A stretch of 64,000 bases of DNA from positions 95,823 to 159,822 of the forward strand of contig NZ_LSNE01000002.1 of the NCBI RefSeq assembly GCF_001565895.1. The letters run 5' to 3'. The position numbers were made by a program, and so were the translations under genes. Under the pieces are notes generated by a model. It saw only the letters and a program-made list of their open reading frames with translations. It was not told the DNA's origin and searched no databases. Origin of the DNA: Paraglaciecola hydrolytica. Its GTDB lineage: Bacteria > Pseudomonadota > Gammaproteobacteria > Enterobacterales > Alteromonadaceae. Positions 34,659 to 43,662 of this stretch are shown one piece after another (the first letter of the stretch is position 1; every line of letters begins with the position of its first letter).

Positions 34659-34862
34659 AATTCAACCCTAATTGTTTGTTTTAGCGCAACAAAAAAATGA
34701 CCTGTACTATGGCAAAAAAAGGGCTTTAACGATAGGTGGGAGTGGCATAAAACTTGGTTTTATTTGGTCGTAAAAGCAGTCGCGAGTAAATAGATGCTAG
34801 TTAAAGAATATCGCTGTACGACGGTGCATGGTTTGAGATCTTATTAACAACTGTAATTAATT

Positions 34863-35399
34863 CTAACTTTCACATCCACAATGATTTTTACATTCAGTAT
34901 CGATACTACTTGCGGAAAACTGAATGGTGCAACACCTTAGTAACTTTTCCTTCAATAGCGACCTGCCTCGTTTTAAGCGGGATTTAACGGCTGGTAAGCT
35001 TAGGTTTTGATTTTCAGCTATGTCTTTTTGCGTAATATTTTCGATTTCACTTTCTAAAAGGATTGAGTTGAAATTAGCTGGGAGCTCTGAAATTAAAATA
35101 CGGATGCAGTTTTCTATGCCTGATTTTTCTTGCTCTGGTAAATCAAGGTCAAACATGTCGAATTCGTCGATACTAACGGTAGTTATTTTTTTAGTCCGGT
35201 AATGGTCGATGATTTTATTTCTACAAATCTGGTAAAGCCATGATGACAGCTTGGTTTTATCGTCTAAACCGTCAATCTTATTGATGACCTGAATAAATAC
35301 GTCTTGCAGTATGTCTTCAGCAATAGCGGTATTTCCTACTTTATTCATAATAAATGTTAGGAGTCGATGGTGGAATTCAGTCCAAATTTGTTCAATCAT
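34863..35399 (-). CDS. SigZ-type ECF RNA polymerase sigma factor
   Basis: A sigma factor of about 178 residues starting MIEQIWTEFHHRLLTFI (ATG 35399; an ATG four codons earlier is possible). Sigma region 2 spans GNTAIAEDILQDVFIQVINKI and LSSWLYQICRNKIIDHYR. Region 4 spans ITQKDIAENQNLSLPAVKSRLKRGR. The C-terminal tail has extra cysteines (RCCTIQF and TECKNHCGCE), as in SigZ-like proteins, and could bind metal or respond to thiol state. It lies 52 bases downstream of the cysteine-rich peptide on the same strand, so the two are probably cotranscribed. No anti-sigma factor is seen nearby. Confidence 0.85.
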   Translation of the reverse strand: MIEQIWTEFHHRLLTFIMNKVGNTAIAEDILQDVFIQVINKIDGLDDKTKLSSWLYQICRNKIIDHYRTKKITTVSIDEFDMFDLDLPEQEKSGIENCIRILISELPANFNSILLESEIENITQKDIAENQNLSLPAVKSRLKRGRSLLKEKLLRCCTIQFSASSIDTECKNHCGCES

Positions 35400-35451
35400 A
35401 ATAATGCTCAAGTTGAGCTAGGGAGCAAGTTTGACCCCTAGCTCAAGTCCG

Positions 35452-35628
35452 TTAACAACAGAGGCGTTTATTGGTGTCACAATCGCAACATGTGCAACAC
35501 TTTTGATCAGCGCAGCAGGTCGTTTCTACCGTGGCACATGTACAGCACTTTGTATCTGTGGTGCAACAAGTACAACTGCCAGTCTCACAATCACAGCATC
35601 CAGTATTGTCATTCTCGTTGGTTTTCAT
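35452..35628 (-). CDS. Cysteine-rich metallothionein-like peptide (58 residues, 18 Cys)
   Basis: A short gene encoding 58 residues of which 18 are cysteine, in clusters CCDC, CTCC, CCTC, CC, CCTCCDC and a final CC. There are almost no hydrophobic residues and no signal peptide. The start ATG at 35628 has a perfect AGGAG (35641-35637) 8 bases upstream and the stop is TAA at 35454-35452. The density and C-x-C/CC clusters resemble metallothioneins, so binding of Zn, Cu or Cd in the cytoplasm is likely, but I cannot match it to a named bacterial family. It precedes the SigZ-type gene and may be controlled by it. The ribosome site and composition make chance unlikely. Confidence 0.85.
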   Translation of the reverse strand: MKTNENDNTGCCDCETGSCTCCTTDTKCCTCATVETTCCADQKCCTCCDCDTNKRLCC

Positions 35629-35667
35629 AACATAGTCTCCTAATTACATTGTGGGTTCATCTAGAGA

Positions 35668-35693
35668 GACGTAGAAACCATAAAAAGGATGCA
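35668..35693 (-). promoter_or_regulatory. Candidate ECF-type promoter of the Cys-rich peptide/SigZ unit
   Basis: On the minus strand TGCATCC (35693-35687) and CGTC (35671-35668) are 15 bases apart and lie about 40 bases before the peptide start. A -10 element with CGTC is typical of ECF sigma promoters, so the sigma factor may drive its own unit. The -35 match is not to a promoter I can name, so this is tentative. Confidence 0.35.
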
Positions 35694-35831
35694 TATATTT
35701 TTGATTTGTTTAACTAAGCGACTAAAAATACATAATCTCTTTGTCACTCACTAGGTTTATACAAATATGTGTGCAAACGTTTTTGGGCAGTATTGTGTTT
35801 AAATTTACCATTGCATCGATACCCTTAATCT

Positions 35832-35933
35832 TTGAAACCGCTCCTTTGTTGGCTGCACTCACTCGCTTCAATCACTTAGTGAATTAAACTCATGGGGACT
35901 CAGTCATAGGTCGCCGCCGTGCAATTCCAATGA
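35832..35933 (-). repeat. Interspersed intergenic repeat, copy 2
   Basis: Read on the minus strand this begins TCATTGGAATTGCACGGCGG and matches the repeat at 19669-19780 with several conserved blocks, including GAGTGAGTGCAGC and GGTTTCAA near the end. It fills most of the gap between the Cys-rich peptide and the globin gene. No coding potential is supported. Confidence 0.7.
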
Positions 35934-35989
35934 TTTTAGGTATATAGTAAAAATTACGAGCAAATTGCATGGATATTGAAGGACGTTTT

Positions 35990-36403
35990 ATGATTTTAAC
36001 AGTAGAAGAAAAAAGTGCTATCAAGGAGTCTTTTGCTGTTTTACTGCGAGAAAATGCCAATGTGGCAGAATGTTTTTATAATAATTTGTTTGAGTTAGCT
36101 CCATTAATTAAACCTTTGTTTAAAAGTGGTCGTGAAAATATAGAAAATCATTTTCATGAACTGATTGGCACGGCGGTAAATAAAATTGATCACTTTAACG
36201 ACTTGCGAGCTGATTTAATTGCACTTGGCAAAAGGCATAAAATCTATGGTGCACAACAGGCGCACTTTGCAGTTGTTAAAGCTGCGTTTATCTTATCTAT
36301 TCAATATAAACTCAAAGGCCAATGTAGCCCATTCCTAGAAAATTCATGGGCTAAGTATATCGATAATATCTCTAGTGTAATGATAGAAGGGTTGGAAAGT
36401 TGA
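35990..36403 (+). CDS. Single-domain globin
   Basis: A 137-residue haem protein of the bacterial haemoglobin type, from ATG 35990, which has AAGGA 6 bases upstream; an ATG seven codons earlier lacks a good site. The fold is recognised from FYNNLFELAPLIKPLFK (B-C-D region, with the CD1 Phe) and LGKRHKIYGAQQAHF, where His83 is the likely proximal haem ligand. No reductase domain is attached, so it is not a flavohaemoglobin. Oxygen or nitric oxide handling is likely; the nearby nitrite reductase genes make NO a candidate, which is inference. Confidence 0.85.
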   Translation: MILTVEEKSAIKESFAVLLRENANVAECFYNNLFELAPLIKPLFKSGRENIENHFHELIGTAVNKIDHFNDLRADLIALGKRHKIYGAQQAHFAVVKAAFILSIQYKLKGQCSPFLENSWAKYIDNISSVMIEGLES

Positions 36404-36649
36404 TTGCTACGCAGACTTGCACTTCGTGCACAGTGCGTGAGCTGCGCAGTAATAATCTTGGTGGTCGCAGGCCAAGCCTGATAAGCACCGGGCATGCCCC
36501 GTCGCGCAGCGATAATCTTTCAGGCTTTTAAAATGTTCGTGGCTAAAGCCATTCCTACGAAAGCCGCTTGTATTGCGCACGCTTCTAACTTGCGCAGCAA
36601 TTAACCTGCTGCGCGCAGTGTTTATCTTTTAAGCTTCTAAAAAATAATA
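36404..36649. repeat. GC-rich intergenic repeat patchwork
   Basis: The gap is filled with palindromic GC-rich fragments such as CTGCGCAG and CGCGCAGCGATAA that recur in other gaps of this window (45.7, 49.4 and 51.4 kb). It includes a REP-like element at 36534-36559. No coding sequence is supported. Confidence 0.5.
36534..36559 (-). repeat. REP-like palindromic element, copy 1
   Basis: On the minus strand it reads CGTAGGAATGGCTTTAGCCA followed by CGAACA: a conserved GTAGGA head and a hairpin GGCTTTAGCC. It matches in pattern the elements at 49897-49920 and 55255-55283, and resembles the GTAGGAGC REP sequences known in Pseudomonas. Confidence 0.6.
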
Positions 36650-37510
36650 TTAAAGCTTTTCAACCTTGTACCCTTGCTCAGCAAGTTTTACGAGTACGCT
36701 ATCAGGCCCTGCTAGGTGCATGGCGCCTACTAGAATATATTCCACTGGTTTGTCGTTTAACATTTTGATGATCTTTGGCATCCATAAGTTATTACGGCTG
36801 ACCAACAAGTCTTGATAAATCTGCGGATAGTTGGCTTTGAATTCATCAATAGTGGCGGCTGCCAACGTTGCCATATCACCGGCTAACCAACTGCTGCGCA
36901 TCACATTGATCATGTCTGGCATCTGGGCAACGTCTTTGATGGTGTAGTCAATCATTGCGCTTTCATCTTCTTTACCTAGACCGACGATAAACGCTAGTTG
37001 ATCATCTGGCGTTTCAAACCACGTCTGGGGTTTACCTGCAGTAAGGGCTTTAGTGGAGTAAAACTGATCTACACCTTCGCTGGTAAATCCTAAGGCTTGC
37101 AGTTCCATTACACTTAAGGTCAAGGCGATTAAACTGGGTTTAAGTTGCAACATGGCTTCGATTGGCACATTGCGTGCGGCTAGATGCTGTTTAAGGTTGG
37201 CAAAGGTTTGTGGTTTTAATACTTTATCCAAAGTAGTGCCGTCAGCATAAACCAACTGCGACATCATTTTTTGTTGAAATTCGATGGAATTAACCGCTGC
37301 GATGTCGGTTTCAAAGACTAAGGTGTCGGCGGCTTCAAAGGCGCTGTCATATTCTTGGGGCAAGGGATAGTCATCTGGACTAAGCAAATGAATGGTGCCA
37401 CCTATATACACTGTGTGTTGATCTGAACTGACTTTCCATACCGATGCGGCTTGTGTGTTTAAAGCCGTGACTACCAAGATGAGTAGACTACAGCGTTTTA
37501 ATAATCTCAT
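36650..37510 (-). CDS. TraB/GumN family protein, exported
   Basis: A 286-residue protein from ATG 37510 with a signal peptide (CSLLILVVTALNTQAA). The TraB/GumN family marks are YIGGTIHLL near the N-terminus, LKPSLIALTLSVMELQALG in the middle, and YILVGAMHLAGPDSVLVKLAEQGYKVEKL at the C-terminus. The family is putatively metal-dependent and some members have been suggested to be proteases, but the bacterial function is unclear. It is transcribed away from the nitrate region. An upstream in-frame ATG would add 15 residues that weaken the signal peptide. Confidence 0.85.
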   Translation of the reverse strand: MRLLKRCSLLILVVTALNTQAASVWKVSSDQHTVYIGGTIHLLSPDDYPLPQEYDSAFEAADTLVFETDIAAVNSIEFQQKMMSQLVYADGTTLDKVLKPQTFANLKQHLAARNVPIEAMLQLKPSLIALTLSVMELQALGFTSEGVDQFYSTKALTAGKPQTWFETPDDQLAFIVGLGKEDESAMIDYTIKDVAQMPDMINVMRSSWLAGDMATLAAATIDEFKANYPQIYQDLLVSRNNLWMPKIIKMLNDKPVEYILVGAMHLAGPDSVLVKLAEQGYKVEKL

Positions 37511-37714
37511 AGAGTAAGTATTTCCAATTCTGGGGCATAAAAGAGCGCGCAGCATAGCGTGTATTTCATCGAATTGGTATATGACTTATGGGTGCAAGCC
37601 TAAAGCAGGAGTGCTCTGCGCCAAATTGGAACGTTTGCACCATAAGATAACATCATTTGTAATTAACTTGTGGTTTTAATAACTTAACTTATTGAAAAAT
37701 AACAAATAAAAAAC

Positions 37715-37730
37715 TGGCACTGATCCTGAA
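37715..37730 (+). promoter_or_regulatory. Sigma54-like promoter of nirB (imperfect)
   Basis: TGGCACTGATCCTGAA has a full -24 TGGCAC, but the -12 element reads CTGAA where CTGCA is expected. It lies about 25-30 bases before the expected leader start. The better matches before the transporter, nrtA and nasT genes support the reading. Confidence 0.45.
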
Positions 37731-37801
37731 TAGTTGTTTGTAAGAAGCTGGAGCACAGGTTGTTATAGCTTACATTTTTAACTTATTTTGATCAGATACA
37801 G

Positions 37802-37874
37802 CAACAAGGTTGTGTTTGGTCCGGCAAAGACGCCCGTATCCTCTGAACTTATCAGATGCTGCGGGTTTTTTTTT
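37802..37874 (+). promoter_or_regulatory. NasT-responsive leader with terminator before nirB
   Basis: A small hairpin GGC-AAAGAC-GCC (37823-37834) has a six-base loop with A at position 1 and G at position 4, the rule for ANTAR target loops. It overlaps the 5' arm of a terminator stem CCCGTATCC...(37833-37865) followed by nine T bases. Formation of the small hairpin would favour read-through into nirB. An upstream stem CAAC/GTTG (37802-37812) may be the first ANTAR loop. Confidence 0.7.
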
Positions 37875-37900
37875 GCTTTCAATTACCATAGAGGTGAAAT

Positions 37901-40498
37901 ATGTCCACGTCAGCACAAGCAACTAACTCACAACTCCGCATCGTCGTTGTCGGCAATGGTATGGTTGGTCATCATTTTGTTGATCAGCTCATTGAGCATA
38001 ATACTTCTGTAGGCGCAGATAATAGTGCGCTGCATATATCGGTACTATCTGCCGAGCCGCGCCTTGCCTATGACAGAGTGCATTTGTCTGAGTTTTTTAG
38101 TGGCAAAAGTGCTGACGAGCTGGCTTTAACTACGCCTGAATATTACCAACAGCATAAAATTGATTACAAACTCAATGCGGCAGTGACTCATATTGATAAA
38201 GTCGCTAAAACCGTTACCACAGTGCAGGGTGAAGTACTGAGTTATAACAAGCTGATATTAGCCACAGGCTCCTATCCTTTTGTACCGCCTATTCCCGGTA
38301 ACGATCAACCCCACTGTTTAGTGTATCGCACCATTGAAGACTTAGAAGCCATAAGTGCCTCGTCGAAAGTCAGTAAAATTGGTGTGGTCGTTGGTGGTGG
38401 TTTATTAGGATTAGAAGCCGCCAACGCATTAAAAGAAGCCGGCTTAGAAACCCACGTAGTCGAGTTTGCCCCGCAGTTAATGGCAGTGCAGGTAGATGGT
38501 GGTGGTGGTCGTTTATTACGCAGTAAAATTGAAGCGCTCGGCGTAAAAGTCCATACCCAAAAAGCCACTCAAACCATTGAAGCTGGTGATGTTTGTCGCT
38601 ACAAAATGTGTTTTGCTGATGGTTCGTTTTTAGAAACCGACATGATCTTGTTCTCGGCCGGTATTCGTCCTCAAGATAAATTAGCTCGTGAGTTTGATAT
38701 CGCCATAGGTGAACGTGGTGGCATAGTGGTGGATAACCACTGCCAAACCAATATCGACGATATTTATGCCATTGGTGAGTGTGCTTTATGGAATAACTTT
38801 ATCTTTGGTTTAGTGGCACCGGGTTACACCATGGCGCGTGTTGCAGCAGCTCATATACTTGGCGGTGATCAGACTTTCTTAGGTGCCGACATGAGTACCA
38901 AGTTAAAACTGATGGGTGTTGAAGTAGGCTCAATCGGTGATGCCCATGCCAAAACCGCAGGTGCTTTGTGTTATACATACGAAAACCAAGCCTCTGCTGT
39001 TTACAAAAAAATGGTAGTGGATAGCAGTAAAAAGAAATTAATTGGTGCGGTATTAGTCGGTGATACCAGTGACTACGATACCTTATTGCAATACGCCCTT
39101 AACGGCATTGATTTACCCGAGCATCCTGAAGCTTTGATTTTACCTGCAAGTGGCGGAGCTAAACCGGGCTTGGGCGCTGATGCCTTACCTGCCACTGCGA
39201 CCATTTGTAGCTGTCACAACGTATCTAAAGGCGACATTATTGCCGCCTTTGATGGTGGTGCTTGTAGTTTGTCTGACATTAAAAGTTGTACCAAAGCCAG
39301 CAGCGGCTGTGGTGGTTGTTCGGCTTTACTTAAGTCGGTATGTGATGCTGAGTTAAGTAAACGTGGCGTCGAAGTTAAAAAAGATATTTGTGAGCACTTT
39401 GCTTATTCCAGACAAGAGCTTTTCCACTTGGTTAAAGTGGGCAAGCTGCAAACTTTTGATGAGTTGCTGACGAAACACGGTAAAGGCTTGGGCTGTGAAG
39501 TCTGTAAACCTGCCGCCGCTAACATACTGGCCTCAGTGTGGAATGAGTTTATCTTGAAACCCGATCATGTGAGTTTGCAAGATACCAACGACACCTACTT
39601 GGGTAACATGCAAAAAGACGGTACCTATTCGATTATCCCGCGTATTGCTGGTGGCGAAATCACCCCTGACAAACTGATTGTATTGGGCCAGGTTGGCAAA
39701 AAGTACAACTTATATACCAAGATCACCGGTGGCCAACGTATCGACTTGTTTGGTGCCCGAGTTGATCAACTGCCTGAAATTTGGAAAATTCTGATTGATG
39801 CAGGTTTTGAAACTGGCCATGCCTATGCCAAATCTCTGCGTACGGTTAAGTCTTGTGTGGGTAGCACTTGGTGTCGTTACGGTGTGCAAGATTCAGTGGG
39901 GCAGGCTATCGAACTAGAAAACCGCTACAAAGGTTTACGTTCACCCCATAAATTAAAATTTGCAGTATCGGGTTGTACTCGTGAGTGTGCCGAAGCACAA
40001 AGCAAAGATATTGGCATTATCGCCACTGAAAACGGTTGGAACCTCTATGTCTGTGGTAACGGTGGTATGAAACCCCGCCACGCCGATTTGTTTGCCACAG
40101 ACTTAGATACCGAGACCTTGGTTAAATATATCGACCGTGTATTGATGTTTTATGTGCGTACTGCTGACCGTTTACAACGAACCTCGGTATGGATGGAGAA
40201 CCTCGAAGGCGGCCTAGAGTATCTCAAACAAGTAGTGATTGAAGACTCCCTTGGTTTAGGTGCTGAACTTGAAAGCCAGATGCAAGTGGTGGTTGATGCT
40301 TACCAATGTGAGTGGAAGACAGCTATCGAAAATGAAGAATCACGTAAACGTTTCCGTCAGTTTGTGAACAGCGACAAAGCCGATACCAATATTGTATTTG
40401 TTGAAGAAAGACAGCAAATTCGCCCGGCTACACCTGAAGAAAAAGCCAGTTTCACGCAGCAACAACAAGCCAAAAGAATAGCCGTAGAGCTGGTATAA
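37901..40498 (+). CDS. nirB: Assimilatory nitrite reductase NAD(P)H large subunit
   Basis: Reduces nitrite to ammonium in the cytoplasm with NAD(P)H. The 865-residue protein has in order an FAD-binding pyridine nucleotide reductase part (VVGNGMVGHHF, IGVVVGGGLLGLEAANALK), a BFD-type [2Fe-2S] domain (CSCHNVSKGDI with CGGC), and the sirohaem/[4Fe-4S] part (VKSCVGSTWCRYG and VSGCTRECAEAQ) that binds and reduces nitrite. It is followed 10 bases later by nirD and then nasA, so the three form an operon. Regulation is by the leader terminator just upstream. Confidence 0.95.
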   Translation: MSTSAQATNSQLRIVVVGNGMVGHHFVDQLIEHNTSVGADNSALHISVLSAEPRLAYDRVHLSEFFSGKSADELALTTPEYYQQHKIDYKLNAAVTHIDKVAKTVTTVQGEVLSYNKLILATGSYPFVPPIPGNDQPHCLVYRTIEDLEAISASSKVSKIGVVVGGGLLGLEAANALKEAGLETHVVEFAPQLMAVQVDGGGGRLLRSKIEALGVKVHTQKATQTIEAGDVCRYKMCFADGSFLETDMILFSAGIRPQDKLAREFDIAIGERGGIVVDNHCQTNIDDIYAIGECALWNNFIFGLVAPGYTMARVAAAHILGGDQTFLGADMSTKLKLMGVEVGSIGDAHAKTAGALCYTYENQASAVYKKMVVDSSKKKLIGAVLVGDTSDYDTLLQYALNGIDLPEHPEALILPASGGAKPGLGADALPATATICSCHNVSKGDIIAAFDGGACSLSDIKSCTKASSGCGGCSALLKSVCDAELSKRGVEVKKDICEHFAYSRQELFHLVKVGKLQTFDELLTKHGKGLGCEVCKPAAANILASVWNEFILKPDHVSLQDTNDTYLGNMQKDGTYSIIPRIAGGEITPDKLIVLGQVGKKYNLYTKITGGQRIDLFGARVDQLPEIWKILIDAGFETGHAYAKSLRTVKSCVGSTWCRYGVQDSVGQAIELENRYKGLRSPHKLKFAVSGCTRECAEAQSKDIGIIATENGWNLYVCGNGGMKPRHADLFATDLDTETLVKYIDRVLMFYVRTADRLQRTSVWMENLEGGLEYLKQVVIEDSLGLGAELESQMQVVVDAYQCEWKTAIENEESRKRFRQFVNSDKADTNIVFVEERQQIRPATPEEKASFTQQQQAKRIAVELV

Positions 40499-40508
40499 GG
40501 AGACAAAT

Positions 40509-40856
40509 ATGACAAATTCTACAAACTGGATCACCGTATGTCAGGAAAGCGACTTAGTCGCTAACTCCGGAGTATGCGCCTTGATCAACGAACAGCAAAT
40601 CGCCCTGTTTAAAGTTAAAAATGCGGGTCAAGAACAACTGTTTGCCATCAGCAACTGGGACCCAATTGGTGAGGCAAATGTACTGTATCGTGGTTTGTTA
40701 TGTTCAGTGGGTGATACTGTTGCAGTGGCATCGCCTTTATACAAACAACGTTTTTGCTTAAGCAGCGGCACTTGTTTGGATTCTGATGACGTGACAATCA
40801 AGGTTTACCCCATACGCCTTGAAAACCAAGCCGTACAATTACAAGTTAGCCAGTAG
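40509..40856 (+). CDS. nirD: Nitrite reductase small subunit
   Basis: A 115-residue Rieske-fold partner of NirB. The sequence shows the start WITVCQESDLVANSGVCALI and NWDPIGEANVLYRGLLC, as expected for NirD, which lacks the usual Rieske cysteine/histidine ligands and stabilises the large subunit. It lies between nirB and nasA, 10 bases after nirB and 7 bases before nasA, so all three should be translated from one transcript. Confidence 0.93.
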   Translation: MTNSTNWITVCQESDLVANSGVCALINEQQIALFKVKNAGQEQLFAISNWDPIGEANVLYRGLLCSVGDTVAVASPLYKQRFCLSSGTCLDSDDVTIKVYPIRLENQAVQLQVSQ

Positions 40857-40863
40857 AGAAACT

Positions 40864-43662
40864 ATGCCAATAAGTGAACCCACAGTAACGAGTATTAATG
40901 GTCTCGCCAAACCACAGGCATCATTAGTTTCGACCACTTGCCCTTATTGTGGTGTGGGTTGCGGCATTGATGTGGTGGTTAAGCAAGGCGAGCAGGCCGA
41001 AAAACCAGGCAGCCTGCAACTTAGTCAATTAAGTGGCAGCAGTGATCATCCGGCTAATTTTGGACGTTTATGTGTTAAAGGCAGTAAGTTGCTTGAAACC
41101 AACAGTAATGTTGGGCGACTCGCCAACCCTAAAATCATGGGTAAAAACGCAGACTGGCCAAGCGCTATCAACAAAGTCGCCACGACTTTTAGCGATATCA
41201 TTGCCAAACATGGCCCAGACGCCGTGGCGTTTTATGTCTCAGGTCAGTTGCTGACCGAAGACTATTATGTTGCCAATAAATTAATGAAGGGCTACATCGG
41301 CAGCGCCAATATTGATACCAATTCACGGCTGTGTATGTCGTCGGCGGTAGCCGCCTATAAACGCGCCTTTGGTGCTGATGCGGTACCTTGTTGTTATGAA
41401 GATCTCGAACTGTGTGATGTATTAGTGTTAGTCGGCTCAAATGCGGCTTGGACTCATCCTGTGCTCTTTCAGCGCATCGAACGAGCCAAGCAACGTAATC
41501 CAGAATTAAAAGTAATATCCATTGATCCCCGTATTACTGCCACGAGTGAATTAGCCGATTTACATCTAGCGATTAAACCCGGCACTGACGTCGCTTTGTT
41601 TAACGGTTTGTTGGCGTATTTAGCGGCTAATAATGGCTTAGACCAAAACTATATTACTCAGTTTACTCAAGGGTTTGAGCAAGCTCTCAGCCAAAGTCAG
41701 CAATGGACAATTAGTAATGTTGCAGAGCTATGTGATATTGAAACACAAGAGCTAAAGACTTTTTATCAAACCTTTTGCCAAGCAGACAAAGCAGTTACCG
41801 CGTATACCATGGGTGTTAACCAATCGACTCGTGGCGTCGACAAAGCAAATGCCATCATTAATTGCCATTTAGCCAGCGGTAAACTGGGCCGTGAAGGTTG
41901 TGGGCCCTTTTCCTTAACCGGACAGCCCAATGCGATGGGGGGCCGTGAAGTAGGCGGTTTGGCAAATATGCTGGCCAGCCACATGGATCTGGATAACCCG
42001 ATTCATCGTGACATCGTACAAAACTACTGGCAGTCACCGACTATTGCCAATAAAGCCGGATTCAAAGCGGTGGATTTGTTTGATGAAATCAACAAGGGTA
42101 AGGTAAAAGCCGTGTGGATCATGGCCACCAACCCTGTAGTGAGCATGCCTAATCGTGACAAAATTATCAACGCACTCAAAAAATGTGAGTTGGTGGTGGT
42201 ATCTGACTGTGTAGCCTCAAATGACACGATTGAGTTGGCCCATGTGGTTTTACCTGCCACAGGCTGGTCAGAAAAAGATGGCACAGTAACCAACTCTGAA
42301 CGACGAATATCACGCCAACGTGGCATTCTTGAACCTTATGGCGAGTCAAAACACGATTGGCAAATACTCTGTGAAGTGGCTAACGCTATGGGCTTTGCCC
42401 AAGGTTTTAATTATTCGCAAGTCGATGAAATATTCCGCGAATATGCGGGGCTGAGCGGTGCCCAAAACAATGGTCAGCGCGACTTGGATTTGTCTGCTCT
42501 TGCAACATTAACAGTGCAGCAGTATCAACGTTTAAGTCCGCTACAATGGCCGGTTAATCAGCAAAATCCACAGGGCACTAAACGTTTGTTCACTGACGGA
42601 CGGTTTTATACCCAAAGTGGTAAAGCCCAGTTTATCCCACTGACTTATCATGCACCTGAGCAGTTAACCACAGTGGATTATCCTTTTGTACTCAACTCTG
42701 GCCGTATTCGCGACCAGTGGCATACCATGACTCGTACCGGTAAAACTGCTGAATTAACCTCCCATATTAGTAAACCCTATGTCGCCATGCATCCACAGGA
42801 TGCCACGCGTTTAAGTTTGCAAGAAGGCGCTTTGATTAAATTAAGCGCGAGTCATTCAAACGAGCAATCTGCGGTAGTGCTGATGGTGACTATCGATGAT
42901 AAACAGCGTAAAGGTGAGTTGTTTGCCCCCATGCACTGGAGTGCTATGAATAGCTCCCATGGTGCGATCACTTCCTTGTTTACTGATGCTAACGATAAGA
43001 TTTCAGGTCAACCAGAGCTTAAACATGCCGCGGTAGCCCTTGAACCGGTGAATTTTAATTTACAGGGTGAACTGTTTATTAAGCATCTACCGTCTATGAC
43101 TGTGTTACGCCAGTGTTTTGAGTTTTTTGTTATTAGTCCCTTTGCTCAAGGGCATAAAGTGAGCTTTGCCACCAATAACAGCATTGCCGCGATTAAATAT
43201 GATCTACAGCTTAATTTACCTCGTTATGATGAGTGGGTCAGTGCTTTAAACCCTCACCAAGAAAGTTTTAATGCCCGTAGTGATGGCAACTTTAGCCTCG
43301 CGCTGTTTGCAGCAAAACAGTCACCCGGAATAGACGACAGTTGGATCAGCCATTTGATGGAGCAAGTCGAACTAAAACCCGAAGAGCTTAATGCCTTGCT
43401 GGCGGGAGTACCTGATGCAGCCTTTAGTGCCGGGCCTTTAGTTTGTAGTTGTTTCAAAGTGGGTAAAAATACCATCAATGAAGCGATTGCTGGCGGTTGT
43501 AGTAGTGTGGAAGAACTCGGACTGAGCCTTAAATGTGGTACCAATTGTGGCTCGTGTAAGTCAGAGCTCAGTCAAATGATCAAACAGCATCAACTGATGC
43601 AGCCGAAAAAAAGCAAGACGTTGGTGGCAGAACAAGGCATTCCACTGGTGCAATTGGCTTAA
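40864..43662 (+). CDS. nasA: Assimilatory nitrate reductase catalytic subunit
   Basis: Molybdopterin enzyme reducing nitrate to nitrite. From ATG 40864 it has 932 residues. The N-terminal [4Fe-4S] site is Cys26, Cys29, Cys33 and Cys70 (CPYCGVGC and GRLCVKG), and the molybdenum ligand is probably Cys157 in NSRLCMSSAV. Cofactor-binding domains include PNAMGGREVGGLANMLASH. A C-terminal BFD-like [2Fe-2S] domain (LVCSCFKVGKN with CGTNCGSCK) should take electrons in. An earlier in-frame start inside nirD is rejected. No separate FAD reductase subunit gene follows, so the electron donor is not encoded next to it. Confidence 0.95.
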   Translation: MPISEPTVTSINGLAKPQASLVSTTCPYCGVGCGIDVVVKQGEQAEKPGSLQLSQLSGSSDHPANFGRLCVKGSKLLETNSNVGRLANPKIMGKNADWPSAINKVATTFSDIIAKHGPDAVAFYVSGQLLTEDYYVANKLMKGYIGSANIDTNSRLCMSSAVAAYKRAFGADAVPCCYEDLELCDVLVLVGSNAAWTHPVLFQRIERAKQRNPELKVISIDPRITATSELADLHLAIKPGTDVALFNGLLAYLAANNGLDQNYITQFTQGFEQALSQSQQWTISNVAELCDIETQELKTFYQTFCQADKAVTAYTMGVNQSTRGVDKANAIINCHLASGKLGREGCGPFSLTGQPNAMGGREVGGLANMLASHMDLDNPIHRDIVQNYWQSPTIANKAGFKAVDLFDEINKGKVKAVWIMATNPVVSMPNRDKIINALKKCELVVVSDCVASNDTIELAHVVLPATGWSEKDGTVTNSERRISRQRGILEPYGESKHDWQILCEVANAMGFAQGFNYSQVDEIFREYAGLSGAQNNGQRDLDLSALATLTVQQYQRLSPLQWPVNQQNPQGTKRLFTDGRFYTQSGKAQFIPLTYHAPEQLTTVDYPFVLNSGRIRDQWHTMTRTGKTAELTSHISKPYVAMHPQDATRLSLQEGALIKLSASHSNEQSAVVLMVTIDDKQRKGELFAPMHWSAMNSSHGAITSLFTDANDKISGQPELKHAAVALEPVNFNLQGELFIKHLPSMTVLRQCFEFFVISPFAQGHKVSFATNNSIAAIKYDLQLNLPRYDEWVSALNPHQESFNARSDGNFSLALFAAKQSPGIDDSWISHLMEQVELKPEELNALLAGVPDAAFSAGPLVCSCFKVGKNTINEAIAGGCSSVEELGLSLKCGTNCGSCKSELSQMIKQHQLMQPKKSKTLVAEQGIPLVQLA

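Follow-up and report, generated by a model that had tools for sequence, protein, structure and literature searches.

We wanted to know whether a small cysteine-rich peptide gene of Paraglaciecola hydrolytica and the sigma factor gene that follows it belong to one regulatory unit, and what such a unit would do for the cell. Positions refer to the window, that is, to the whole stretch of 64,000 nucleotides that was analysed.

A cysteine-rich peptide gene precedes a SigZ-like sigma factor gene

The features of the locus are the following:

35667-35692, minus strand: predicted SigZ-type promoter, GCATCC (-35, 35687-35692), N15 and CGTCT (-10, 35667-35671), from the motif
35637-35641, minus strand: AGGAG ribosome-binding site, exactly 8 bases 5' of the peptide ATG, from the sequence
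35452-35628, minus strand: metallothionein-like peptide of 58 aa with 18 Cys and no His, from the ORF and its conservation
35413-35446, minus strand: predicted stem-loop with a 12-bp outer stem and without a long U run (-20.5 kcal/mol, z -4.3 against mononucleotide shuffles)
34863-35399, minus strand: SigZ-like ECF sigma factor of 178 aa with 7 Cys (NF007215, TIGR02959, Sigma70_r2, Sigma70_r4_2)
34872-34934, minus strand: cysteine tail of the sigma factor, C156, C157, C170, C174 and C176, from an alignment of 79 SigZ-like sigmas

A preliminary description of this DNA had reported a peptide of 58 residues with 18 cysteines in CC, CxC and CCxCC clusters, a perfect AGGAG 8 bases ahead of its ATG, and a sigma gene beginning 52 bases further on with RCC and CxxxCxC in its tail. 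All of this was found as described: cysteine makes up 31% of the peptide, with clusters that include CC, CxC and CCTCC, and 52 bases separate the peptide from the sigma ATG at 35399. The accompanying remark that the peptide falls below the usual length cutoff for gene calling is doubtful, since 58 aa is not under the minimum length of common gene callers.

The cysteine fraction of the peptide (0.31) stands well apart from that of the runner-up among the 250 window ORFs of 40-100 aa (0.12) and from the maximum in 20 first-order resamples (0.18). A chance ORF is ruled out by this excess over the controls, together with the presence of a peptide in all nine units of the clade described below. In five peptide pairs out of five the synonymous difference exceeded the nonsynonymous one. 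Both rates could be estimated in two of these pairs, with dN below dS in each (dN 0.30 and dS 1.33 for the closest pair, dN 0.68 and dS 1.60 for another), dS being saturated in the other three. By these substitution patterns, the peptide evolves as a coding gene. None of the nine clade peptides matched a Pfam or NCBIfam profile at E up to 1, which agrees with the earlier statement that the peptide could not be placed in a known bacterial metallothionein family, and no PDB chain matched the window peptide. The traits of a metallothionein in the broad sense are present in all nine (46-60 aa, 11-18 Cys, CC/CxC clusters). Clustered CC and CxC spacing is the usual arrangement of metal thiolates, and this tiny peptide probably grips toxic soft metals.

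The two genes are conserved as a unit in nine genomes

A search with the sigma factor in 395 genomes of the window's family returned seven more close relatives (E up to 1e-38) in four other genera, and a scan of genome contigs added one close sigma (54% identity over the best segment) in an Oceanospirillaceae MAG, plus one distant sigma. The MAG unit (L005) comprises a peptide of 51 aa and 14 Cys located 64 bases upstream of the sigma gene. A same-strand peptide of 46-60 aa and 11-16 Cys lies directly upstream in all eight close relatives, making 9/9 with the window, while the same test found none at the 70 other SigZ-like loci; ten duplicate or distant loci are omitted from this count, and the 79 sigmas still include near-copies. 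Eight of the 38 genomes with a sigma match gave no locus and stand outside the counts, and L003, which has a stop in the sigma frame, is outside the 79, no ORF of 120 aa having been called there. In the tree, the nine peptide-linked sigmas form one long-stem clade (support 100/100; none of 500 label shuffles as low), in which the window sigma is sister to the Oceanospirillaceae sigma (support 100/99). The preliminary description had suggested looking for the peptide beside sigZ in relatives, and would have counted the lack of a conserved homologue with kept cysteines against itself. The peptide-sigma unit occurs in nine genomes, each with a cysteine-rich peptide, and the observation is confirmed as real, conserved and functionally coherent.

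The distribution of the unit is patchy. The genus is represented by 21 further genomes, none of which gave a close sigma relative, although two have distant ones (29-30% identity). No further close relative was found among 116 genomes of the family of the Oceanospirillaceae MAG, the next match having E 1e-30. In a 349-genome sample of the phylum, only the window carries the unit among 13 sigma matches; six of the 13 are new sigmas without a separate upstream cysteine-rich peptide gene, and the rest are the window or known loci. IMG/VR contained no relative of the peptide and two distant sigmas only, and every one of the 1272 records returned by a plasmid search with the sigma was below 60% identity. 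When the 58-aa peptide was the query, it found only itself in 60 genomes (none in the 59 others). Of 295 family genomes, a nine-row peptide profile picked out five, each a known carrier, and failed to detect the window copy at E 0.001, so the peptide is best located through its sigma; the nine peptides share no strict cysteine pattern, their sequences having diverged too far. Because the window sigma pairs with that of an Oceanospirillaceae and is absent from its own genus, we infer that the unit may have been acquired by horizontal transfer.

The flanking genes differ among genera (RND pump, suf, hut, ilv-like genes and others, mostly identified by eye); a profile scan of ten flank genes matched hut repressor, SoxR and multidrug-type RND models. 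Flanks are shared by two units only, both of one genus, and, since the neighbours change between genera, the pair itself is what is conserved. In the window, positions 35969-43662 hold a nitrogen-oxide neighbourhood, with a globin gene divergent from the unit followed by TraB/GumN, nitrite reductase-type and molybdopterin oxidoreductase genes. The region ahead of the Oceanospirillaceae unit (L005:607-4556) encodes a Cu-oxidase-domain protein (resembling a copper nitrite reductase by eye), a multicopper oxidase and a c-type cytochrome. Across the nine units no metal-resistance gene is found repeatedly (mostly by eye; ten flank genes profile-scanned): a multicopper oxidase is near one of them, that of L005, and RND pumps whose best matches are multidrug models are near another. 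With genus-specific flanks and no recurring metal gene, the idea that the peptide is part of a wider metal-resistance island is unsupported.

The sigma factor carries family-wide and clade-specific cysteines

The assignment of the sigma factor to the SigZ type held as far as its best profiles are concerned, namely NF007215 (E 7.5e-50; 169.4 bits) and TIGR02959 (158.4 bits), and failed at their curated cut-offs, which are 212 and 168.65 bits, respectively. In a midpoint-rooted tree of 79 sigmas, all collected by similarity to SigZ or to the window sigma, the latter is nested among the SigZ-like rows, with which it shares C98 and C157. We therefore call it SigZ-like.

C98 and C157 are present in 79/79 SigZ-like sigmas and C156 in 67/79. 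By comparison, C59, C170 and C174 occur in all nine peptide-clade sigmas and in none of the 70 others, and C176 in all nine and in 40 of the 70; for the tail, these per-residue counts depend on the alignment. The spacing of the tail (RCC ... CKNHCGC, that is, CC-x12-C-x3-C-x-C) can be read free of alignment: it is kept in 9/9 clade sigmas and, even with x10-14 in place of x12, found in 0/70 others. A cysteine-bearing tail had been taken as a mark of the pair. As such it is not unique to it, C98 and C157 being family-wide, and what is peculiar to the clade are C59, C170 and C174. C98 could make a three-thiol site with the tail CC, plausible as a sensor of the As(III) type or for a soft metal. 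An AlphaFold model built on nine rows (mean pLDDT 69, pTM 0.43) was too poor for cysteine geometry, and the best 29 Foldseek matches to it were ECF-type sigmas with TM-scores (query) of 0.33-0.37.

A cysteine-tailed sigma factor brings to mind CorE and CorE2 of Myxococcus xanthus (former ECF44, now ECF238). The cysteine-rich C-terminal domain of CorE is required for its response to copper and has four invariant cysteines, C181, C184, C192 and C194, spaced CxxC-x7-CxC (PMC3107203). CorE is described without a linked anti-sigma (PMC3107203; PMC8999054). The window sigma resembles CorE as an ECF sigma with C-terminal cysteines, presumed on-board metal sensing and no linked anti-sigma: by eye, no third gene, anti-sigma candidates included, recurs across genera at the nine units. 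It differs in its cysteine spacing, which is CC-x12-C-x3-C-x-C in the window and throughout the clade, and in its linker, which runs from the sigma2 part to the tail and has C98 as its sole cysteine in 8/9 rows, the linker CXC of CorE being found in none. Membership of the CorE group is excluded on both counts. The targets also differ, those named for CorE being cuoB and copB (PMC3107203, in part), not a peptide of its own operon.

That the locus is nevertheless a copper-specific system of the CorE kind, with the sigma as copper sensor and the peptide as a Cu(I) metallothionein like MymT, is a possibility on the unlikely side. The cysteine tail of the sigma and the small CC/CxC peptide would fit it, as would the multicopper oxidase upstream of the L005 unit, cuoB likewise adjoining corE (PMC3107203, in part). 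The tail spacing and the missing linker CXC argue against it, and so do the other eight units, beside which no copper gene was seen (by eye, with ten flank genes scanned).

A single promoter-like element precedes the pair

The sequence GCATC[CT]TTTT-N11-CGTCT precedes the peptide gene in all nine units, with 36-55 bases between its end and the peptide start. The CGTC -10-like element noticed earlier is, in the window, its CGTCT at 35667-35671, with GCATCC 15 bases away. Over the 64 kb of the window this element is the sole match at up to 2 mismatches, and the strict pattern has a single exact match per carrier genome, in all nine ahead of the peptide. The nine genomes contain seven extra one-mismatch matches, the same number as for the reversed-pattern control. 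Allowing up to two mismatches gave 18 matches against 12 reversed in the window's genome and 24 against 20 in the L005 genome; a first version of the pattern had given 10 against 15 and 15 against 12, respectively. In the L005 genome, one of the one-mismatch matches lies between porin-like and MlaA-like genes, both on the opposite strand (by eye), and another has no fitting gene on the same strand. No second regulon member was seen in the nine genomes, near matches being at the control level. Among the 21 genus-mates, only G004 has an exact match, which adjoins another SigZ-like sigma and precedes an ArsP-type permease gene. One-mismatch matches number 12 across these 21 genomes, one of them ahead of the SigZ-like sigma of G019, against 16 for the reversed pattern.

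Loci of the SigZ-like kind that are free of the peptide bear the motif as well, and there it stands before sigZ, GST, ArsM, ArsI/CadI and ArsP-type genes. SigZ-like loci totalling 249 kb contain 42 copies of a relaxed form of it, which was drawn up after viewing the best matches in loci later counted; mononucleotide shuffles gave 0.25 and the reversed pattern 0. In 14 loci fetched once the expression had been fixed, it was found in 11, seven of which are new peptide units (expected 0.025 from first-order resamples; reversed 0). Across 84 loci, with the near-duplicates L041 and L097 omitted, there are 52 matches in 50 loci, and 34 loci are without a match. All 52 are followed by an open frame of 40 aa or more, with a purine-rich stretch before the start in 51, a feature that the script favours in choosing starts. 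Besides these counts, we observed that at L100:1483-2625 a SigZ-like sigma and the next gene (cupin-like by eye) come with one copy of the relaxed motif apiece, and that a cysteine-tailed SigZ-like sigma on an IMG/VR contig (L140:2992-3555), accompanied by a recombinase-type gene and a ferredoxin-like cysteine-rich ORF (by eye), has none.

Since SigZ-like loci share this promoter type and each carrier genome has a single exact match, the sigma factor most likely drives its own operon, and these two genes are probably its whole regulon, a search of this kind passing over targets with weaker promoters. The earlier reading, of a metal- or thiol-responsive sigma that controls its own metal-binding peptide, is supported in part: control of the peptide by the sigma is well supported by the unit in nine genomes and by a SigZ-locus type of promoter before the pair, and the tail as such is not special.

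A predicted hairpin lies between the two genes

A stem-loop is predicted in 9/9 gaps between peptide and sigma, although the gap sequences are unrelated. Its z value against mononucleotide shuffles is below -3 in six gaps and weaker in three (-1.6 to -2.5). No Rfam family was found in 34700-36000. As most of the nine hairpins are without a U run, they are better read as protectors of a transcript end or as partial attenuators than as full terminators, and some of the transcript may end, or be cut back, past the peptide.

This layout bears on whether the peptide could be regulatory, that is, whether instead of chelating in bulk it acts as a small metal-dependent anti-sigma or supplies the sigma with metal. 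The strict pairing of the two genes (9/9) speaks for such a role, as does the fact that, by eye, no other candidate anti-sigma gene recurs at these loci. A gap hairpin would on the other hand suit a higher output of peptide than of sigma, and there would be nothing to regulate if the operon is the only target. The peptide also diverges faster than the sigma, with dN of 0.30 against 0.11 in the closest pair and a higher value in 5/5 pairs. Taken together, we regard a regulatory peptide as quite improbable.

Arsenic and thiol genes lie near other SigZ-like sigmas

Among 74 neighbours of other SigZ-like loci, hand-picked from longer lists, there are 17 GST, 7 glutathione synthase, 6 ArsR-type HTH, 3 ArsP and 3 NADPH-dependent FMN reductase family genes, and a further scan confirmed one each of ArsH, ArsM, ACR3 and an ArsR/SmtB-type protein. 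Thirty genes that follow the motif and encode neither sigma nor peptide, picked in the same way, include 7 GST, 6 ArsP_1 permeases, 5 arsenite methyltransferases and 5 ArsI/CadI. One of the last five is at L146, where a 40-aa broken ArsI/CadI-like frame stands under the motif and the following frame of the same gene was counted. By association only, the SigZ-like sigma family would belong to soft-metal(loid) and thiol defence, a link that derives from other SigZ-like branches and not from the peptide clade.

The ArsI/CadI-type genes under the motif are those at L018:919-1374, L143:2113-2652, L144:867-1385, L146:1027-1356 (broken frame) and L023:2072-2509; in L143, L144 and L146 their products have a cysteine-rich tail in which CC pairs recur and which may be an attached thiol ligand. 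The glutathione synthase matches, which are of the eukaryotic type (PF03917/PF03199), lie downstream of sigZ in L040-L059 and related loci.

These surroundings could also mean that the sigma responds through its cysteines to electrophiles, oxidants or reactive nitrogen and that the peptide is a sacrificial thiol pool, in other words a thiol or redox buffer. GST and glutathione synthase are the commonest of the neighbours given above. The window pair has the globin gene on one side and MoeA on the other, with nitrite/nitrate reductase-type genes nearby. Upstream of the Oceanospirillaceae unit are multicopper-oxidase-type genes, of which one resembles a copper nitrite reductase by eye, and a SoxR-type gene is found about 4 kb from the L160 unit. 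Such a buffer is nonetheless unlikely in our judgement: the CC/CxC clusters of the nine peptides suit a metal-thiolate arrangement, the presence of ArsM, ArsI/CadI and ArsP-type genes behind the same motif favours metal(loid)s, and no nitrogen-oxide genes were seen by eye beside the other seven units.

Proposed mechanism

We propose, with a probability of about 0.7, that the locus is a stand-alone, autoregulated cassette for detoxification under soft-metal(loid) or thiol stress, with a metallothionein-like output. The cysteines of the sigma (C98 with C156/C157, plus C59, C170, C174 and C176) would form the sensor of the soft metal(loid) or thiol stress, and binding of the signal at this site would activate the sigma. 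The holoenzyme would then read a single promoter, GCATCCTTTT-N11-CGTCT, giving a transcript for both peptide and sigma, on which the intergenic stem-loop would favour the former, so that much chelator and little activator are made. By sequestering the soft metal(loid), the peptide would remove the signal and reset the sigma. The metal would be of the class of As(III)/organoarsenical, Cd, Cu or Zn.

Comparison with known systems

In size and cysteine content, the window peptide is similar to MymT of Mycobacterium tuberculosis. We set the two side by side by description, and MymT differs as a member of the RicR regulon (PMC10141476, in part). SmtA and BmtA also pair a small cysteine-rich peptide with its own regulator, in the smtA-smtB operon. 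The window peptide has no profile match and lacks His, whereas the cluster of the Pseudomonas/SmtA type is Cys9His, and SmtB, which accompanies SmtA, is a divergent repressor and not a sigma (PMC7387436, in part); the Pseudomonas metallothioneins are described there as being without a linked metal regulator.

OrbS of Burkholderia cenocepacia is likewise an ECF sigma whose C-terminal cysteines sense metal, with the differences that Fe(II) switches it off and that it serves iron uptake genes (PMC9023288, in part); such tails can therefore also turn a sigma off. With SigZ-type ECF sigmas (TIGR02959/NF007215), the window sigma shares its best profiles, C98, C157 and the promoter type GC[AG]TC[CT]TTTT-N11-CGTCT. 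It departs from them by its scores under both cut-offs, its own long-stem clade, the extra C59, C170 and C174, and a dedicated peptide gene. By analogy, the unit would work like CorE plus a metallothionein while being a member of neither family.

Among the open-licence PMC papers listed, none was seen to place a metallothionein in the same operon as a sigma that is SigZ-like or senses metal. A role for SigZ is not apparent from the listed titles of open-licence PMC papers that contain the name, and SigZ-like sigmas seem to be without an assigned role in that literature, as far as the parts of it covered here go. The novelty lies in a combination of known kinds, namely a cysteine-tailed ECF sigma and a metallothionein-like output in a one-operon regulon.

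A broader proposal, for and against which we see about equal odds, is that SigZ-like ECF sigmas are one-protein sensors of soft metal(loid)s (C98 and the tail CC) acting on one promoter of arsenic, thiol and metal defence genes, and that one clade has reduced its regulon to a single operon of itself plus a new class of bacterial metallothionein, as a minimal portable cassette of sensor and chelator moved between orders. A metal biosensor is one possible use of this small two-gene unit. If our reading is true, the SigZ-like sigmas would gain a promoter, a likely class of signal and a sensor site open to testing, a family of metallothionein-like peptides not described before would be added, and the circuit would be an unusually small one, with one sigma, one promoter and one effector.
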